Assembly (NCBI GenBank): GCA_029938265.1
Contig: JAOZVI010000001.1
Coordinates: 1 to 64,000, forward strand
Source of the DNA: Flavobacteriaceae bacterium
GTDB lineage: Bacteria; Bacteroidota; Bacteroidia; Flavobacteriales; Flavobacteriaceae
Direction of reading: 5' to 3'
Length of the DNA stretch: 64,000 nucleotides
The position numbers were made by a program, and so were the translations under genes. Shown here piece by piece: positions 1,492 to 7,502 of the stretch (within the stretch, counting starts at the first letter, position 1; each line of letters begins with the position of its first letter). Under the pieces are notes generated by a model. The model saw only the letters and a program-made list of their open reading frames with translations. It was not told where the DNA came from and searched no databases.

Positions 1492-2814
1492 CTAAAAAAT
1501 ATTTGGTGTTACTCTTTTTTTCACATATCGTCGGTAATGAAAATTTATCCCTAGCGAGAATATTAGCATTGATGGATTTTTCCATAAATTTCTATTAAGA
1601 AGAACCCTATATAATATACTTTTTATAGAGAAAACCTCATTATTGATCCACCAATACATTTCCGTTAATTTTTCAGGAGCTATCTTTTTAGGAATGTGAA
1701 CACATTGAGTTCCGTCAAACTTTCGAAGGTCATCTGTTAACATCCTATTTTGTTTAGCTAACTCTTTATATAATTCTGTTCCAGGAACTGGTGTTAAAAT
1801 ATAAAACCGTGGGATTGGTATTTTGTTTTTATAAATGAACTTACTGGTTTCCCGGATTGAATCTTCAGTATCAAAATCAGTACCAATAATCATTTCTATA
1901 CTGACAGTAATTCCCGATTTAGCTAGAATCCTAATGTTTTTTTCATGATCTTTGGCTTTTAGCCATGGTTTATCTAAACTATCTATCGCTTCTTGTTGAA
2001 TACTTTCTACACCAAAACTCATAAGGTCACAACCAGACTCTCGTACTATTTTCAATAGTTTAGTATTCTGAGCCAAATGAATGATACACTGGCTTGCCCA
2101 TTTCATCTTTAAAGGAATAATTTTTTGGCAAAGTTCTTTAAGGTATTTTGGATTTGAGACAATATTATCATCTATTAAATAAAATCGATTGAACCCTAAA
2201 CGCTTTACTTCTTTTATGTCTTGAATTACTTCATCAACAGGACGGTATAAATATTTTCCTTCATACAAACAGGCAATTGAGCAAAACGAACATGTAAAAG
2301 TACAACCCCGTCCTGCTTGAACAGGCAACATTGAACCAATTTTCTTTTTAGTCAGTAAATCGTATCTGGGTATTGGTAAGTTTTTTAATTCATTAATTGG
2401 ATAATTATACAGAGGTTTAACTGTACCATTTTCCTCATAATCCTGTAACATTTTTGGATAAGAAATTTCAGCATCGCCAATAACAACAGAATCAACATAT
2501 TTCATAGCCTCTTTATAAGCGATAGAAGCCATATAACCACCCATGACAACTAATTTTCCTCTCTTTTTAAATTCTGCGGCAATTTCCAACCCTCTAAAAG
2601 TAGCATGTCCCATACTTCCTATAGCGACAATATCAGCTTCTGTATCGAAATTAATTTCATCAACAACTTCAATAAGTAACTCCACTTGCCAATGAGCGGG
2701 GGTATAAGCTGCCAATAGAGGAAATGCCAATCCTGGAAGGTTTATTTTCCGCTGTTTGCATAATTTCCCATTATCAGCATACTGCGTAGGTTGTATAAAA
2801 AGTATTTTAGGCAT
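1492..2814 (-). CDS. B12-binding-domain-type radical SAM protein (rSAM2), paralogue of rSAM1
   Basis: 440 aa; GKLVVMGGYMAS...VDSVVIGDAE; CxxxCxxC in GRGCTFTCSFCS; similar length and motifs to rSAM1 (KWASQ, GFES/GVES, PYPRTKIFE/PVPGTELYK). Confidence 0.88.
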   Translation of the reverse strand: MPKILFIQPTQYADNGKLCKQRKINLPGLAFPLLAAYTPAHWQVELLIEVVDEINFDTEADIVAIGSMGHATFRGLEIAAEFKKRGKLVVMGGYMASIAYKEAMKYVDSVVIGDAEISYPKMLQDYEENGTVKPLYNYPINELKNLPIPRYDLLTKKKIGSMLPVQAGRGCTFTCSFCSIACLYEGKYLYRPVDEVIQDIKEVKRLGFNRFYLIDDNIVSNPKYLKELCQKIIPLKMKWASQCIIHLAQNTKLLKIVRESGCDLMSFGVESIQQEAIDSLDKPWLKAKDHEKNIRILAKSGITVSIEMIIGTDFDTEDSIRETSKFIYKNKIPIPRFYILTPVPGTELYKELAKQNRMLTDDLRKFDGTQCVHIPKKIAPEKLTEMYWWINNEVFSIKSILYRVLLNRNLWKNPSMLIFSLGINFHYRRYVKKRVTPNIF

Positions 2815-4177
2815 AATATTCGGCTTCTTTAATTCTCTTTTTGTATTGCTTTGTTACACGATACCCTCCCACAAACATCTTAAAAAGCATTAATGGGCTA
2901 TATGTTGTTAAATATTTTAATATTACTTTTGGGCTATATAAAATTGAAGTATAAGCTTTTAGTATTTCTTTATAGAAATCAGCAACAGATAATTTTGTTG
3001 GTCGAACCGAAATATGCGCCAGATCCCACTGTTCATAATTCAATTTTTCAATAATAATTTGGTCTGCAGCAAAACTAACTTCTGTTTTTGGAAGGGGTGT
3101 TAAAGGCTGTAAATTTACAAAATGGATCCCCAGCAATTTAATCACATCAACCATATTTTTGAAATCGCTTTTATCCCATTCCGGGGGAATAATAATAGTA
3201 GCAAAAACATCCATATTTTCCTTATGTAGAACAGCCATGGTTTGATTGTATATTGAAACTGAAATATTTTTATTGTATTTATCCAATTCCTTATCCGAAA
3301 AACTTTCGAAACCAACTATTACGGTCTTTAAACCAATTTGAGCAAGTTGGTGCATAATATTAGGGTTTTTTGCTATAAAATCAGCTCGACCATAAACCAA
3401 AAAATGCTTATTTATTTTTCGCTTTTTTATCTCTGAAATAAATTCCTGCAGCCATTTTATATCAATCAAAAAATCGTCGTCAACTATATAAATTTCCTTT
3501 TCCTCTATTTGTTCAAGCTCTTGAATTACATTCTGCACTGGTCTTTGATAATAGAGCCCATTTGTAATTACTCTGCAAAAGCAAAAAGAACATTTATATG
3601 GACAACCAAATGATGTTTTGATTAGTGCCACATTCTTATGAAAAATGTAAAAATATTTGTCACGATACTTTGAAACAGAACTTCTGTCAGGGAAAGGAGT
3701 AGTAAAATCCAAATCAGGAAGTGTCAAATCTTCCAATTTATCTCCTTTTCGCAAAACGCCTTGTGGCAGTTCTGTATTTTTATCAATATGATTTAGTAAA
3801 TCTGTAAATATCACAGAAGCATTTCTTATAACACGGAAATCAATCATATCGTTTTCAAAATCCTCAGGACATACTTCACAATGTACTCCGCCAACAATAT
3901 TAATAATATCTTTTGATATACTCTTGGCTATAGTACAGTACCTAATAATTGTTGAAACATTAGTAATATACCCGGTAACACATAATACATCAGGGCTATA
4001 CTCTACAATAAAAGATTCTATAGTTCTTTTTTCAAGAATCATATCTACAATTACAACTGAATCACAATCCCGCTTAAGTGCATACAAAATTTCTAATTCT
4101 AAAGGCTCGACAATCATCAGATGTTGCAAACCAATTGTTTCTGAAGAAGGTTTTGGCCTTACCATTAATATTTTCAT
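2807..4177 (-). CDS. B12-binding-domain-type radical SAM protein (rSAM3)
   Basis: 456 aa; INIVGGVHCEVCPEDF and CxxxCxxC in SFGCPYKCSFCF; overlaps rSAM2 by 8 nt. Confidence 0.87.
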   Translation of the reverse strand: MKILMVRPKPSSETIGLQHLMIVEPLELEILYALKRDCDSVVIVDMILEKRTIESFIVEYSPDVLCVTGYITNVSTIIRYCTIAKSISKDIINIVGGVHCEVCPEDFENDMIDFRVIRNASVIFTDLLNHIDKNTELPQGVLRKGDKLEDLTLPDLDFTTPFPDRSSVSKYRDKYFYIFHKNVALIKTSFGCPYKCSFCFCRVITNGLYYQRPVQNVIQELEQIEEKEIYIVDDDFLIDIKWLQEFISEIKKRKINKHFLVYGRADFIAKNPNIMHQLAQIGLKTVIVGFESFSDKELDKYNKNISVSIYNQTMAVLHKENMDVFATIIIPPEWDKSDFKNMVDVIKLLGIHFVNLQPLTPLPKTEVSFAADQIIIEKLNYEQWDLAHISVRPTKLSVADFYKEILKAYTSILYSPKVILKYLTTYSPLMLFKMFVGGYRVTKQYKKRIKEAEYYA

Positions 4178-5181
4178 AATAATACCTCCTTTATTGCATT
4201 TGTGTTTTCTAGTTTTCGCTTATATTCCATTAAAGGGCTGCTAAAAATTAGTAATTTGTTTAGTGCCCAATTACTGTGGCGAGCCTCCATAAATCTAGAT
4301 TGTGGCATACCTCCCATTCGCATTTTAGGGATTTCTGCTGTTTGCCCTAACTCTATAAATTCTGATTTACTCTCAATACCATCCTTTATCAAACTTGCAA
4401 GTAATCCCAAATAGGCACCATTTGTTTTATTCTGATTATAATCAATTCCTCCCAAAAAGAAATAATATATATCATTATTTATAAGACTTATATTCCATCC
4501 AATAATTAAATCCTCTTTAAAACAAACCAGTAGATTAAATTCCTTAGGAAGATTTTGGAAAAACTTAAGACTAAGTTTCTCTAATTTACTACGGCTGCGC
4601 TTATACACCTCTATATATAACTTATGCATTTCTTTAGTAAAATCTTTACACTTCATTTTTCGGAACTGTAAATCTTTATTGGCCATATTTATTTGATTCA
4701 ACCTACGTCTGTAGTTTGAGCGAAGTGAGGCCTTATAATTCTCCCATTTGACAAAACGGTTTCTTAATATAATAGTTGGTAAAGTATTCCCTAAAGCATA
4801 TAAACCCGCTTTTGGCTTTTCCTCAAGATTTAAAAACAGAACAAATCCTTTTTCCTCATTATAAATATGATTTTTTAAAGCTTCTATTGCACTTTTATTC
4901 CCAAAAATTCCGGCACTCGACACCGAACAAGGAACTCCTACAATATTCATTTTTATTGGACTTTTAATATTGATAAATGTAAAAATATCAAGTCGTATAG
5001 AGTAAATAATAGCAGCCGAAACCATTTTATCATCTTCAAGACATAAATAATAGCGCTGATTACAGTGATTAAACTTTTCGGTATATTTAAGAAATTTTAT
5101 TTGTTGAAAATAGTTATCAGCAAGCTCATCCCATTGTAATGGAAGATTAATGGAATCTTGAATATTTAAATATTCCAACAT
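4174..5181 (-). CDS. GNAT/FemAB (BioF2-like) acyltransferase-like protein
   Basis: 335 aa; YKASLRSNYRRRLNQI motif typical of FemAB/BioF2-like GNAT-fold proteins; overlaps rSAM3 by 4 nt. Confidence 0.65.
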   Translation of the reverse strand: MLEYLNIQDSINLPLQWDELADNYFQQIKFLKYTEKFNHCNQRYYLCLEDDKMVSAAIIYSIRLDIFTFINIKSPIKMNIVGVPCSVSSAGIFGNKSAIEALKNHIYNEEKGFVLFLNLEEKPKAGLYALGNTLPTIILRNRFVKWENYKASLRSNYRRRLNQINMANKDLQFRKMKCKDFTKEMHKLYIEVYKRSRSKLEKLSLKFFQNLPKEFNLLVCFKEDLIIGWNISLINNDIYYFFLGGIDYNQNKTNGAYLGLLASLIKDGIESKSEFIELGQTAEIPKMRMGGMPQSRFMEARHSNWALNKLLIFSSPLMEYKRKLENTNAIKEVLL

Positions 5182-6269
5182 TATAACTTTGTTTCAAATA
5201 TTGCAAACTTTCGGTAAACCTCTGGCTCCTTTCCATAACAACGTTGAAGAATTCGTTTTACAAAAGCTATTGAAGCACGATTTTCTTCAAAAATAAATCC
5301 TCCTTCACAATACTTATAACCTTTCTCAATAAGTGTAGGAAGAGATTTATTAATTAATGCAAGTGCAACTGGACTACGTTGATATTCAGGAATAATTCCA
5401 ATTTCTGTAAAGCGAAATGTATCAATTGATTTTCCAAGTCGGTATTTAAAAACATCAAAAACATTCAAATCACGCTGACCTGAAACCAATTGGTTAAAAT
5501 CGGGATACCACAAAAAGAAACCTATAGGCTTTCCTTTTATTTCAGCAAAGATTAAATTTTCATTATCTAACAGATATTTAAAAGGACTAAACATTTCAAA
5601 ATCCTCTTCCTTATCACGATTTGCCCAATAAGGATGCTCTATAAATGCCTGATTATTAAGTCGAGTGTAAATTGCACTTTCTTCTTTAATATTTCGTTTA
5701 TTCATAAACCTAATATTAAGCCCTTTAAGCTCTCTTTGTATTGTATAAGAGTGTGCCCAAGCTTTATACACTTTCATACTAAAACGAAATGTATACATTT
5801 TGTGACAATTAAGGTCCTTGAAATAATTGGCATAATAATCTGGATTATAAGGAAGTCCAAACATGGGTATTTCATCAAAACGATTTAATAAAATTCCTGC
5901 TCCATAATTTAAATGGCCATTCAAGCCAACAACTACCTTTTTACATTGCGAAAAATGCTTATAAATTTCTTTTTTTATCAAAGCAAAGATCTCTCCTAAA
6001 CCTTTTTGTGCTTCAAAAAATGAAACTTGAATATAGTCCTTTAGTTTATGATCATTAATGAGAGCAAAACGTGCAACGAGATTATTTCCATCCCTTACTA
6101 CAAATTTTTTTATAGAAGAATGTTTGTTAAACGAGCTATTAGAATTCAAAAGCAGCTTTTCAATACTGCTTTCGGTAGCACGAAAATAATTATTTCCCAT
6201 ATAAACATCAGCACTTACCTTTTCAAAATATTTATACGCCGATTTTCCCTCAATAAGCTCTATATTCAT
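5181..6269 (-). CDS. N-acetyltransferase-like protein (YghO-like GNAT family)
   Basis: 362 aa; LNYGAGILLNRFDEIPMFGLPYNPDYYANYF resembles the N-x-GxL-x-FD-PP-MPYNPPYY pattern of that family; C-terminal GNAT-like region (TEIGIIPEYQRSPVALALIN); overlaps next gene by 1 nt. Confidence 0.65.
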   Translation of the reverse strand: MNIELIEGKSAYKYFEKVSADVYMGNNYFRATESSIEKLLLNSNSSFNKHSSIKKFVVRDGNNLVARFALINDHKLKDYIQVSFFEAQKGLGEIFALIKKEIYKHFSQCKKVVVGLNGHLNYGAGILLNRFDEIPMFGLPYNPDYYANYFKDLNCHKMYTFRFSMKVYKAWAHSYTIQRELKGLNIRFMNKRNIKEESAIYTRLNNQAFIEHPYWANRDKEEDFEMFSPFKYLLDNENLIFAEIKGKPIGFFLWYPDFNQLVSGQRDLNVFDVFKYRLGKSIDTFRFTEIGIIPEYQRSPVALALINKSLPTLIEKGYKYCEGGFIFEENRASIAFVKRILQRCYGKEPEVYRKFAIFETKL

Positions 6270-6350: not shown

Positions 6351-7502
6351 TTATATAAAATATTCTTCAGGTTTTGGAAAGCCTAAGAACTGCATATATG
6401 ATGATGCTGAATATGATCCTGCATTGCCAAATACTACAATATCACCAATCTTAAGTTCAGGTAATTCTACATTATTTGAAAAAATATCACGTGAATAAGT
6501 TGAACAACCATAAATAGTTGTAGTGACTGTTTTATCAGAAATTAATTGAACTCCATCCCTTATAATCATAATAGGGTGATTAGCGGAATCGGGATAAAGC
6601 AAAGGACGTGAAAACTGAACTGTAGAAGAGTTAAGACCAACCAATAGTTTATTATCTCGTTTCTTTACATCAGTAACATTCGAAACAAAATAACCAGCCT
6701 CACAACCTATTATTCTTCCAGGCTCAATTATAAGTTTAATATCTCTGTTAATTTGTTTTGAAACTTCATTCATTAATTGTGTAATTTGAGTATTGAACTC
6801 TGAAAAATCAAACTGTTTTTTTTTATCCTCAGAAACACCAAATCCTCCTCCAAAATTTAAGTATTCCAAATTGGTAAAATCTCTGGCTATATCAATTAGC
6901 TCTTTATAACAATTAATAAAATAGTCAATGTTAAAAATATCAGTTCCAACATATAAATGCAAACCTGAAATTTTTGATTTATCGCTAATATTATTAATTT
7001 CTTCCTTAGTAAAACCTAATCTGCTATTCTTGCCAATAAAGTAACCTGCACGTGTAGCGTATGGTTTTACATTATCCCCAATATTACAACGTATTCCTAC
7101 TGATTTTTTAGGAAATAATTTCAACCATAATTCAAGTTGATTTGGTGAATCCAAATTTAGTTGAACGCCATAACTTTCTGCTTTTATAATTGATTTTGCT
7201 GATAGTGCAGATGATGTAAGAATTATCTCTTGATCTCTATACCCAACTTTATGAGCAGCTTCAAGGTGCAAAATAGAATTGACAAATATATTAACTTTTT
7301 CTTCTTTTACAATACGAAGAAATTGAGAACTAATATTTGCCATTGAAGCAAAATGAATGGATTTATTTTTATACGAAATGTTCTGAAAAATACGGCACTG
7401 ATTTCTAATCTTCTGACTGTCATAAACATAGTATGAGTCAAATTCATCTTCTGCTTTACTTTCAATAAAAGAAAGAATATCTTTTTCCAAAACCATTTTC
7501 AA
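6351..7502 (-). CDS. Fold-type-III PLP-dependent Orn/DAP/Arg decarboxylase-family protein with atypical PLP-lysine motif
   Basis: 383 aa; LNFGGGFGV, IIEPGRIIGCEAGYF, CSTYSRD and FGNAGSYSAS are family-like, but the YAVKAN-equivalent reads HFASMAN. Confidence 0.8.
   Translation of the reverse strand: MKMVLEKDILSFIESKAEDEFDSYYVYDSQKIRNQCRIFQNISYKNKSIHFASMANISSQFLRIVKEEKVNIFVNSILHLEAAHKVGYRDQEIILTSSALSAKSIIKAESYGVQLNLDSPNQLELWLKLFPKKSVGIRCNIGDNVKPYATRAGYFIGKNSRLGFTKEEINNISDKSKISGLHLYVGTDIFNIDYFINCYKELIDIARDFTNLEYLNFGGGFGVSEDKKKQFDFSEFNTQITQLMNEVSKQINRDIKLIIEPGRIIGCEAGYFVSNVTDVKKRDNKLLVGLNSSTVQFSRPLLYPDSANHPIMIIRDGVQLISDKTVTTTIYGCSTYSRDIFSNNVELPELKIGDIVVFGNAGSYSASSYMQFLGFPKPEEYFI

Follow-up and report, generated by a model that had tools for sequence, protein, structure and literature searches.

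Putative LysA-like fold-type III proteins without the Schiff-base lysine and their radical SAM gene neighborhoods

Relatives of diaminopimelate decarboxylase (LysA) and ornithine decarboxylase (ODC) carry the Schiff-base lysine in a YAxKA/C/N motif. One gene in the DNA analyzed here (the window, a stretch of 64,000 nucleotides from a Flavobacteriaceae contig) encodes a protein of this fold with FASMAN at the same place. Is the methionine real, and what might such a protein do? The original prediction held that Met replaces the PLP lysine, that the reading frame is intact and simple decay is not the cause, and that the other PLP-site elements are retained. Features of the window are collected in Table 1.

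Table 1. Features of the lysine-less gene and its operon in the window
Feature	Position	Strand	Remarks
Lysine-less LysA/ODC-fold protein, CDS	6351..7496	minus	381 aa counted from the ATG at 7496; passes the PF02784 and PF00278 cut-offs
ATG codon, Met at the Schiff-base lysine position	7341..7343	minus	Residue 54 (TTG frame), Met52 (ATG start); motif FASMAN
HLYVGT: Tyr184 at PLP-stacking His position, Thr187 at phosphate-binding Ser position	6942..6959	minus	
GGGFG, phosphate-binding glycine loop, retained	6837..6851	minus	G218 and G220 invariant
EPGR (E260-R263), pyridine-N and phosphate contacts, retained	6714..6725	minus	Roles from ODC literature
CSTYSRD in place of the CESGD motif (carrier of the catalytic Cys)	6486..6506	minus	Window column is Thr
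GSY with Tyr364 (Tyr389 of ODC, phosphate contact), retained	6411..6419	minus	Tyr in 11/11
362-aa GNAT-like protein, operon gene 2	5181..6269	minus	Orthologues L003 and L004 pass the Acetyltransf_1 cut-off; conserved neighbor
335-aa GNAT/FemAB-like protein, gene 3	4174..5181	minus	Acetyltransf_6 over cut-off in L004; conserved neighbor
B12-binding radical SAM protein 1	2807..4177	minus	PF04055 and PF02310; 70-75% identical in L003-L005
B12-binding radical SAM protein 2	1492..2814	minus	PF04055; PF02310 weak, below cut-off; 83-85% identical in L003-L005
B12-binding radical SAM protein 3, contig edge	165..1463	minus	PF04055; PF02310 weak, below cut-off

The longer version of the frame (6351-7502, minus strand) encodes 383 amino acids from a TTG at 7502, and residue numbers used here, such as Met54, follow it. 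Because all three close orthologues begin at the ATG at 7496, this codon is probably the real start, and the residue would therefore be Met52 in the real protein. Both Pfam gathering scores were passed (PF02784, 72.9 bits, cut-off of 23.4; PF00278, 53.6 bits, cut-off of 23), placing the product in the Orn/DAP/Arg decarboxylase superfamily of fold type III. LysA was the best match in a PDB profile search, and LysA structures were the best Foldseek matches of the predicted model. Against the LysA equivalog TIGR01048, the window protein scored 169 bits versus a cut-off of 297.9 bits; the other lysine-less members described below scored 159 to 249 bits, and the members fell below every equivalog cut-off in NCBIfam. 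The same genome encodes a separate canonical LysA with YAVKAL.

HMMER aligned FASMAN with FAVKAN, the lysine motif in solved LysA structures, and all 27 Lys-bearing homologues compared have Lys where the window protein has the methionine. In an AlphaFold model based on a five-sequence alignment, the C-terminal domain is poor and the barrel is good (most blocks at 80 to 94 pLDDT, residues 31 to 263), with residue 54 directly after strand 47-52, as expected of the lysine position. A scan of 84,980 genomes returned three close orthologues (73, 67, and 70% identity), from MAGs labeled Bacteroidales, Bacteroidetes, and Chitinophagaceae. All three keep Met, which is also present in the homologues that adjoin B12-binding radical SAM genes. 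The window gene is intact and full length, and dN relative to the L003 orthologue (0.18) is far below dS (1.7, with synonymous sites near saturation), indicating that it is under purifying selection. Both the predicted substitution and the predicted absence of simple decay were thus borne out.

Beyond the three orthologues, the lysine is also missing from eight more distant homologues that we found and from one congeneric copy. The distant members come from Bacteroidota genomes (G191, G741, G799, and G953), from plasmids of Sinorhizobium meliloti GR4 (protein WP_015241380), S. medicae, Mesorhizobium huakuii, and Gloeothece, and from an IMG/VR metavirome contig. The 13 members found, window protein included, comprise 12 with Met at the lysine position and one, on the Gloeothece plasmid (L072:9902-11131), with Val (FATVTN). 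They span at least three bacterial phyla, in a census that outside Bacteroidota is one of individual finds rather than systematic. Among 298 genomes of the same order, no further members were found at the clade threshold, and best matches in five congeneric genomes were only at the level of canonical LysA. Several PLSDB "plasmid" records of 2 to 5 Mb (H82, H84, and H87; Neisseria gonorrhoeae, Aeromonas, and Proteus) are apparently chromosomes.

In trees computed with the active-site columns removed, 11 lysine-less rows fell on one side of a branch (support 100/98), and later 12 did so (support 99/95). AU tests rejected grouping with Bacteroidota LysA for the AAMCN pair (P = 0.0055), the four window-type proteins (P = 0.00015), and the Gloeothece protein (P = 0.0196), these groupings having been picked after the tree was seen and several branches being long. 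Column-stripped trees and AU tests thus favor one clade over independent losses of the lysine. A search limited to open-licence papers, in which a negative result counts for little, returned no account of this clade and nothing relevant on lysine-less fold-III proteins, SnoaL/NTF2-like leaders, or such clusters. Within the LysA-like fold-type III proteins, the clade forms a family not named before.

The active site was compared between 11 lysine-less proteins (all members except G953 and the IMG/VR protein, L116) and 27 Lys-bearing proteins. Three residues are lost in 11/11: Lys54, the Cys of the Cys335 column, and the equivalent of Asp88 (position 73). The column of the catalytic Cys contributed by the partner subunit (Cys360 of ODC) holds Thr or Val throughout, and the CESGD site reads [ST]-T-[YF]-S-[RK]-D across the clade, with NTVLQND in the AAMCN branch. 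Position 75 is Asn in every lysine-less protein compared. R138, G218, G220, E260, P261, G262, R263, D339, D354, and Y364 are kept in 11/11, and among them are the PLP phosphate and pyridine-N contacts known from ODC (Arg154, the Gly loop, Glu274, Arg277, and Tyr389, mapped by motif). The expectation that PLP-site elements are retained therefore stands for GGGFG, EPGR, and NAGSY and fails for CSTYSRD, which had been counted among them and in fact replaces the motif of the catalytic Cys. The PLP-stacking His position is Tyr in 11/11 lysine-less proteins and His in 25/27 Lys-bearing ones; since two Lys-bearing homologues, encoded beside acyl-carrier-protein genes, also have Tyr, the change was dropped as a mark of inactivity. 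Taken at the level of sequence, this is selective remodeling, in which the lysine and the catalytic Cys are discarded and the residues for the PLP phosphate and ring nitrogen are kept.

No clade-wide substitute lysine, which would have spoken against the prediction, appeared in the same alignment. The sole clade-wide lysine, K280, is common to 25/27 Lys-bearing proteins. All four window-type proteins have K146, in a low-confidence loop specific to that type.

The window and the three orthologue loci (L003-L005) share one gene order: the lysine-less gene, the 362-aa GNAT-like gene, the 335-aa GNAT/FemAB-like gene, and B12-binding radical SAM genes 1 and 2. Of the third radical SAM orthologue, L005 has an intact copy and L003 one that an interruption splits (L003:9284-10795); none was found at the same place in L004. 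Further downstream, L004 (14290-16883) has a different radical SAM gene whose product is 33% identical to radical SAM protein 1. The operon is likely cotranscribed, because adjacent genes either overlap or are separated by tens of bases. Upstream of the window gene, no conserved small ORF of precursor type was found, and neither a PqqD-like gene nor an NTF2-like protein was found in the window operon.

Radical SAM genes lie next to 9/13 members, versus 1/54 canonical LysA loci in a motif scan of short 1.5-kb flanks; as the nine represent only three or four independent kinds, this difference hints at an association but falls short of a clean test. The S. meliloti, S. medicae, and IMG/VR loci each run NTF2-like, QueA-like, PqqD-like, SPASM radical SAM, B12-binding radical SAM, and lysine-less protein, and a CPBP-family protein comes next on the two Sinorhizobium plasmids. 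In NCBIfam, the rhizobial radical SAM pair comes nearest to the models of mycofactocin/PqqE-type maturases and ApyD, with every score well short of the cut-off. In M. huakuii, two radical SAM genes precede the lysine-less gene, and DUF3050 and TldD-related genes follow it. The Gloeothece gene comes after an asparagine-synthetase-like gene, with no radical SAM neighbor, and none was seen beside the lysine-less genes of G191, G953, and G741.

These cassettes have further features of their own. A RiPP maturation system would have a precursor peptide and an RRE in one cassette. The rhizobial and metavirome cassettes hold a PqqD-like gene and an NTF2-like protein with a conserved tail, candidate features of this kind. 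This NTF2/SnoaL-like protein is encoded upstream of the QueA-PqqD-radical SAM genes (L070:4742-5233, L073:4750-5241, and L116:471-995), and its C-terminal tail, G[IV]RVLNE[KR]IAT..A..GVAQ, is nearly identical although full-length identity between the S. meliloti and IMG/VR proteins is only 37%. It is possibly a RiPP precursor with an NTF2-like leader. The QueA-like homologue of SAM:tRNA ribosyltransferase-isomerase (L070:5287-6312, L073:5293-6318, and L116:1029-2165) is unlikely to serve queuosine synthesis there. The M. huakuii region L071:3547-17000, which holds DegT aminotransferase pieces, a split transketolase, the two radical SAM genes, the lysine-less gene, DUF3050 and TldD-related genes, and a weak BtrH_N-like match, is an apparent uncharacterized biosynthetic cluster.

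How does the protein compare with known systems? It shares with LysA (TIGR01048; PDB 2yxx and 2p3e) the two-domain fold, the glycine loop, EPGR, and the Tyr389 equivalent; unlike LysA, it has Met for the Schiff-base Lys, Thr for the catalytic Cys, and Tyr for the stacking His. BtrK-type acyl-carrier-protein amino-acid decarboxylases offer a natural-product context, and some carrier-adjacent homologues share the Tyr at the stacking-His position, but BtrK-type enzymes keep Lys and Cys, and the window operon is without a carrier-protein gene. The B12-binding radical SAM protein of the rhizobial cassettes is nearest in NCBIfam to ApyD of the aminopyruvatide RiPP clusters (239 to 298 bits, cut-off of 750), whereas the apy cluster as published includes MNIO and P450 genes but lacks a fold-III protein (PMC10635010). 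YggS/PLPHP (COG0325) is a fold-III PLP holder without known catalysis, and its K36A variant still binds PLP noncovalently in the same pocket, with a KD of 124 versus 1.3 nM, and can use neighboring lysines (PMC9601805). Wild-type YggS is a single barrel with its Lys present, unlike the clade, whose members add the C-terminal beta domain PF00278 and are naturally without the Lys; the window protein is thus not of the YggS/PLPHP type.

We give an even chance to the reading that the lysine-less protein is a Lys-independent cofactor- or substrate-binding partner in radical SAM tailoring cassettes and not a decarboxylase. Ordinary amino-acid decarboxylation would not be expected, because there would be no internal aldimine. 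Most likely, the pocket would still bind a ligand noncovalently, either of the pyridoxal-phosphate type (PLP, PMP, or a PLP-substrate adduct) or a phosphorylated one like it. Its hydrophobic Met surroundings and the remodeled dimer-interface motif may hold or process an amine-bearing intermediate, which would serve the coencoded radical SAM and acyl-transfer enzymes of a specialized-metabolite pathway. In favor of this reading count the invariant Met of the four window-type proteins, the single clade, the selective remodeling of the active site, the radical SAM neighbors, and the separate canonical LysA of the genome. By analogy with YggS K36A, Lys-free fold-III proteins can hold PLP noncovalently. 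On the other side, the pocket residues may have been kept for structural reasons, some members have no radical SAM neighbors (Gloeothece, G191, G953, and G741), the His-to-Tyr change also occurs in two Lys-bearing homologues, the C-terminal domain of the model is poor, and K146 could be a local surrogate lysine in the window type.

The main rival, to which we assign a lower yet substantial probability, is a pseudo-enzyme scaffold that no longer binds PLP and pairs with the radical SAM enzymes in a structural or substrate/peptide-binding role, as antizyme inhibitor does with antizyme. The loss of both catalytic residues in every member compared (11) is consistent with it, as are the PqqD-like RiPP-recognition domains and radical SAM maturases of the rhizobial and metavirome cassettes. 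The invariant phosphate and ring-N contacts argue against it, and so does antizyme inhibitor itself. This ODC-derived pseudo-enzyme is likewise an inactive-looking ODC-fold homologue kept by selection, but it mostly keeps Lys and Cys, has lost PLP-pocket residues such as Arg154, and does not bind PLP (PMC3543441). The lysine-less clade shows the reverse, Lys and Cys lost and the pocket kept, and does not match the antizyme-inhibitor type.

It seems unlikely that the family goes further and performs Lys-independent PLP chemistry, jointly with B12-binding radical SAM enzymes, on a peptide or small-molecule intermediate while holding PLP, PMP, or a PLP-substrate aldimine. More improbable still is an ordinary PLP enzyme with a displaced lysine, its internal aldimine formed by a local surrogate such as K146 or by a partner's lysine in trans. 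B12-dependent aminomutases are a precedent for a lysine acting in trans, K146 is present in all four window-type proteins in their type-specific loop, and YggS K36A can turn to neighboring lysines; against this, K280, the one lysine present across the clade, also occurs in Lys-bearing homologues, and the catalytic Cys is lost too. A sequencing or assembly error, a point variant, or a decaying gene has next to no probability. In its favor, the window comes from a draft genome in 255 fragments (contigs), but Met recurs in 12/13 independent records, complete isolate plasmids included, the frames are intact, and dN is well below dS; the absence of Lys from close homologues refutes this explanation.

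Database entries name members of the clade diaminopimelate decarboxylase, alanine racemase, or decarboxylase, and these names are very probably wrong. PLP enzymes are regarded as being defined by their Schiff-base lysine, and here a multiphylum clade drops this residue together with the catalytic Cys and keeps the remaining pocket. The clade would be one of two things, a path to PLP chemistry that needs no lysine or a binding module recruited into radical SAM pathways.
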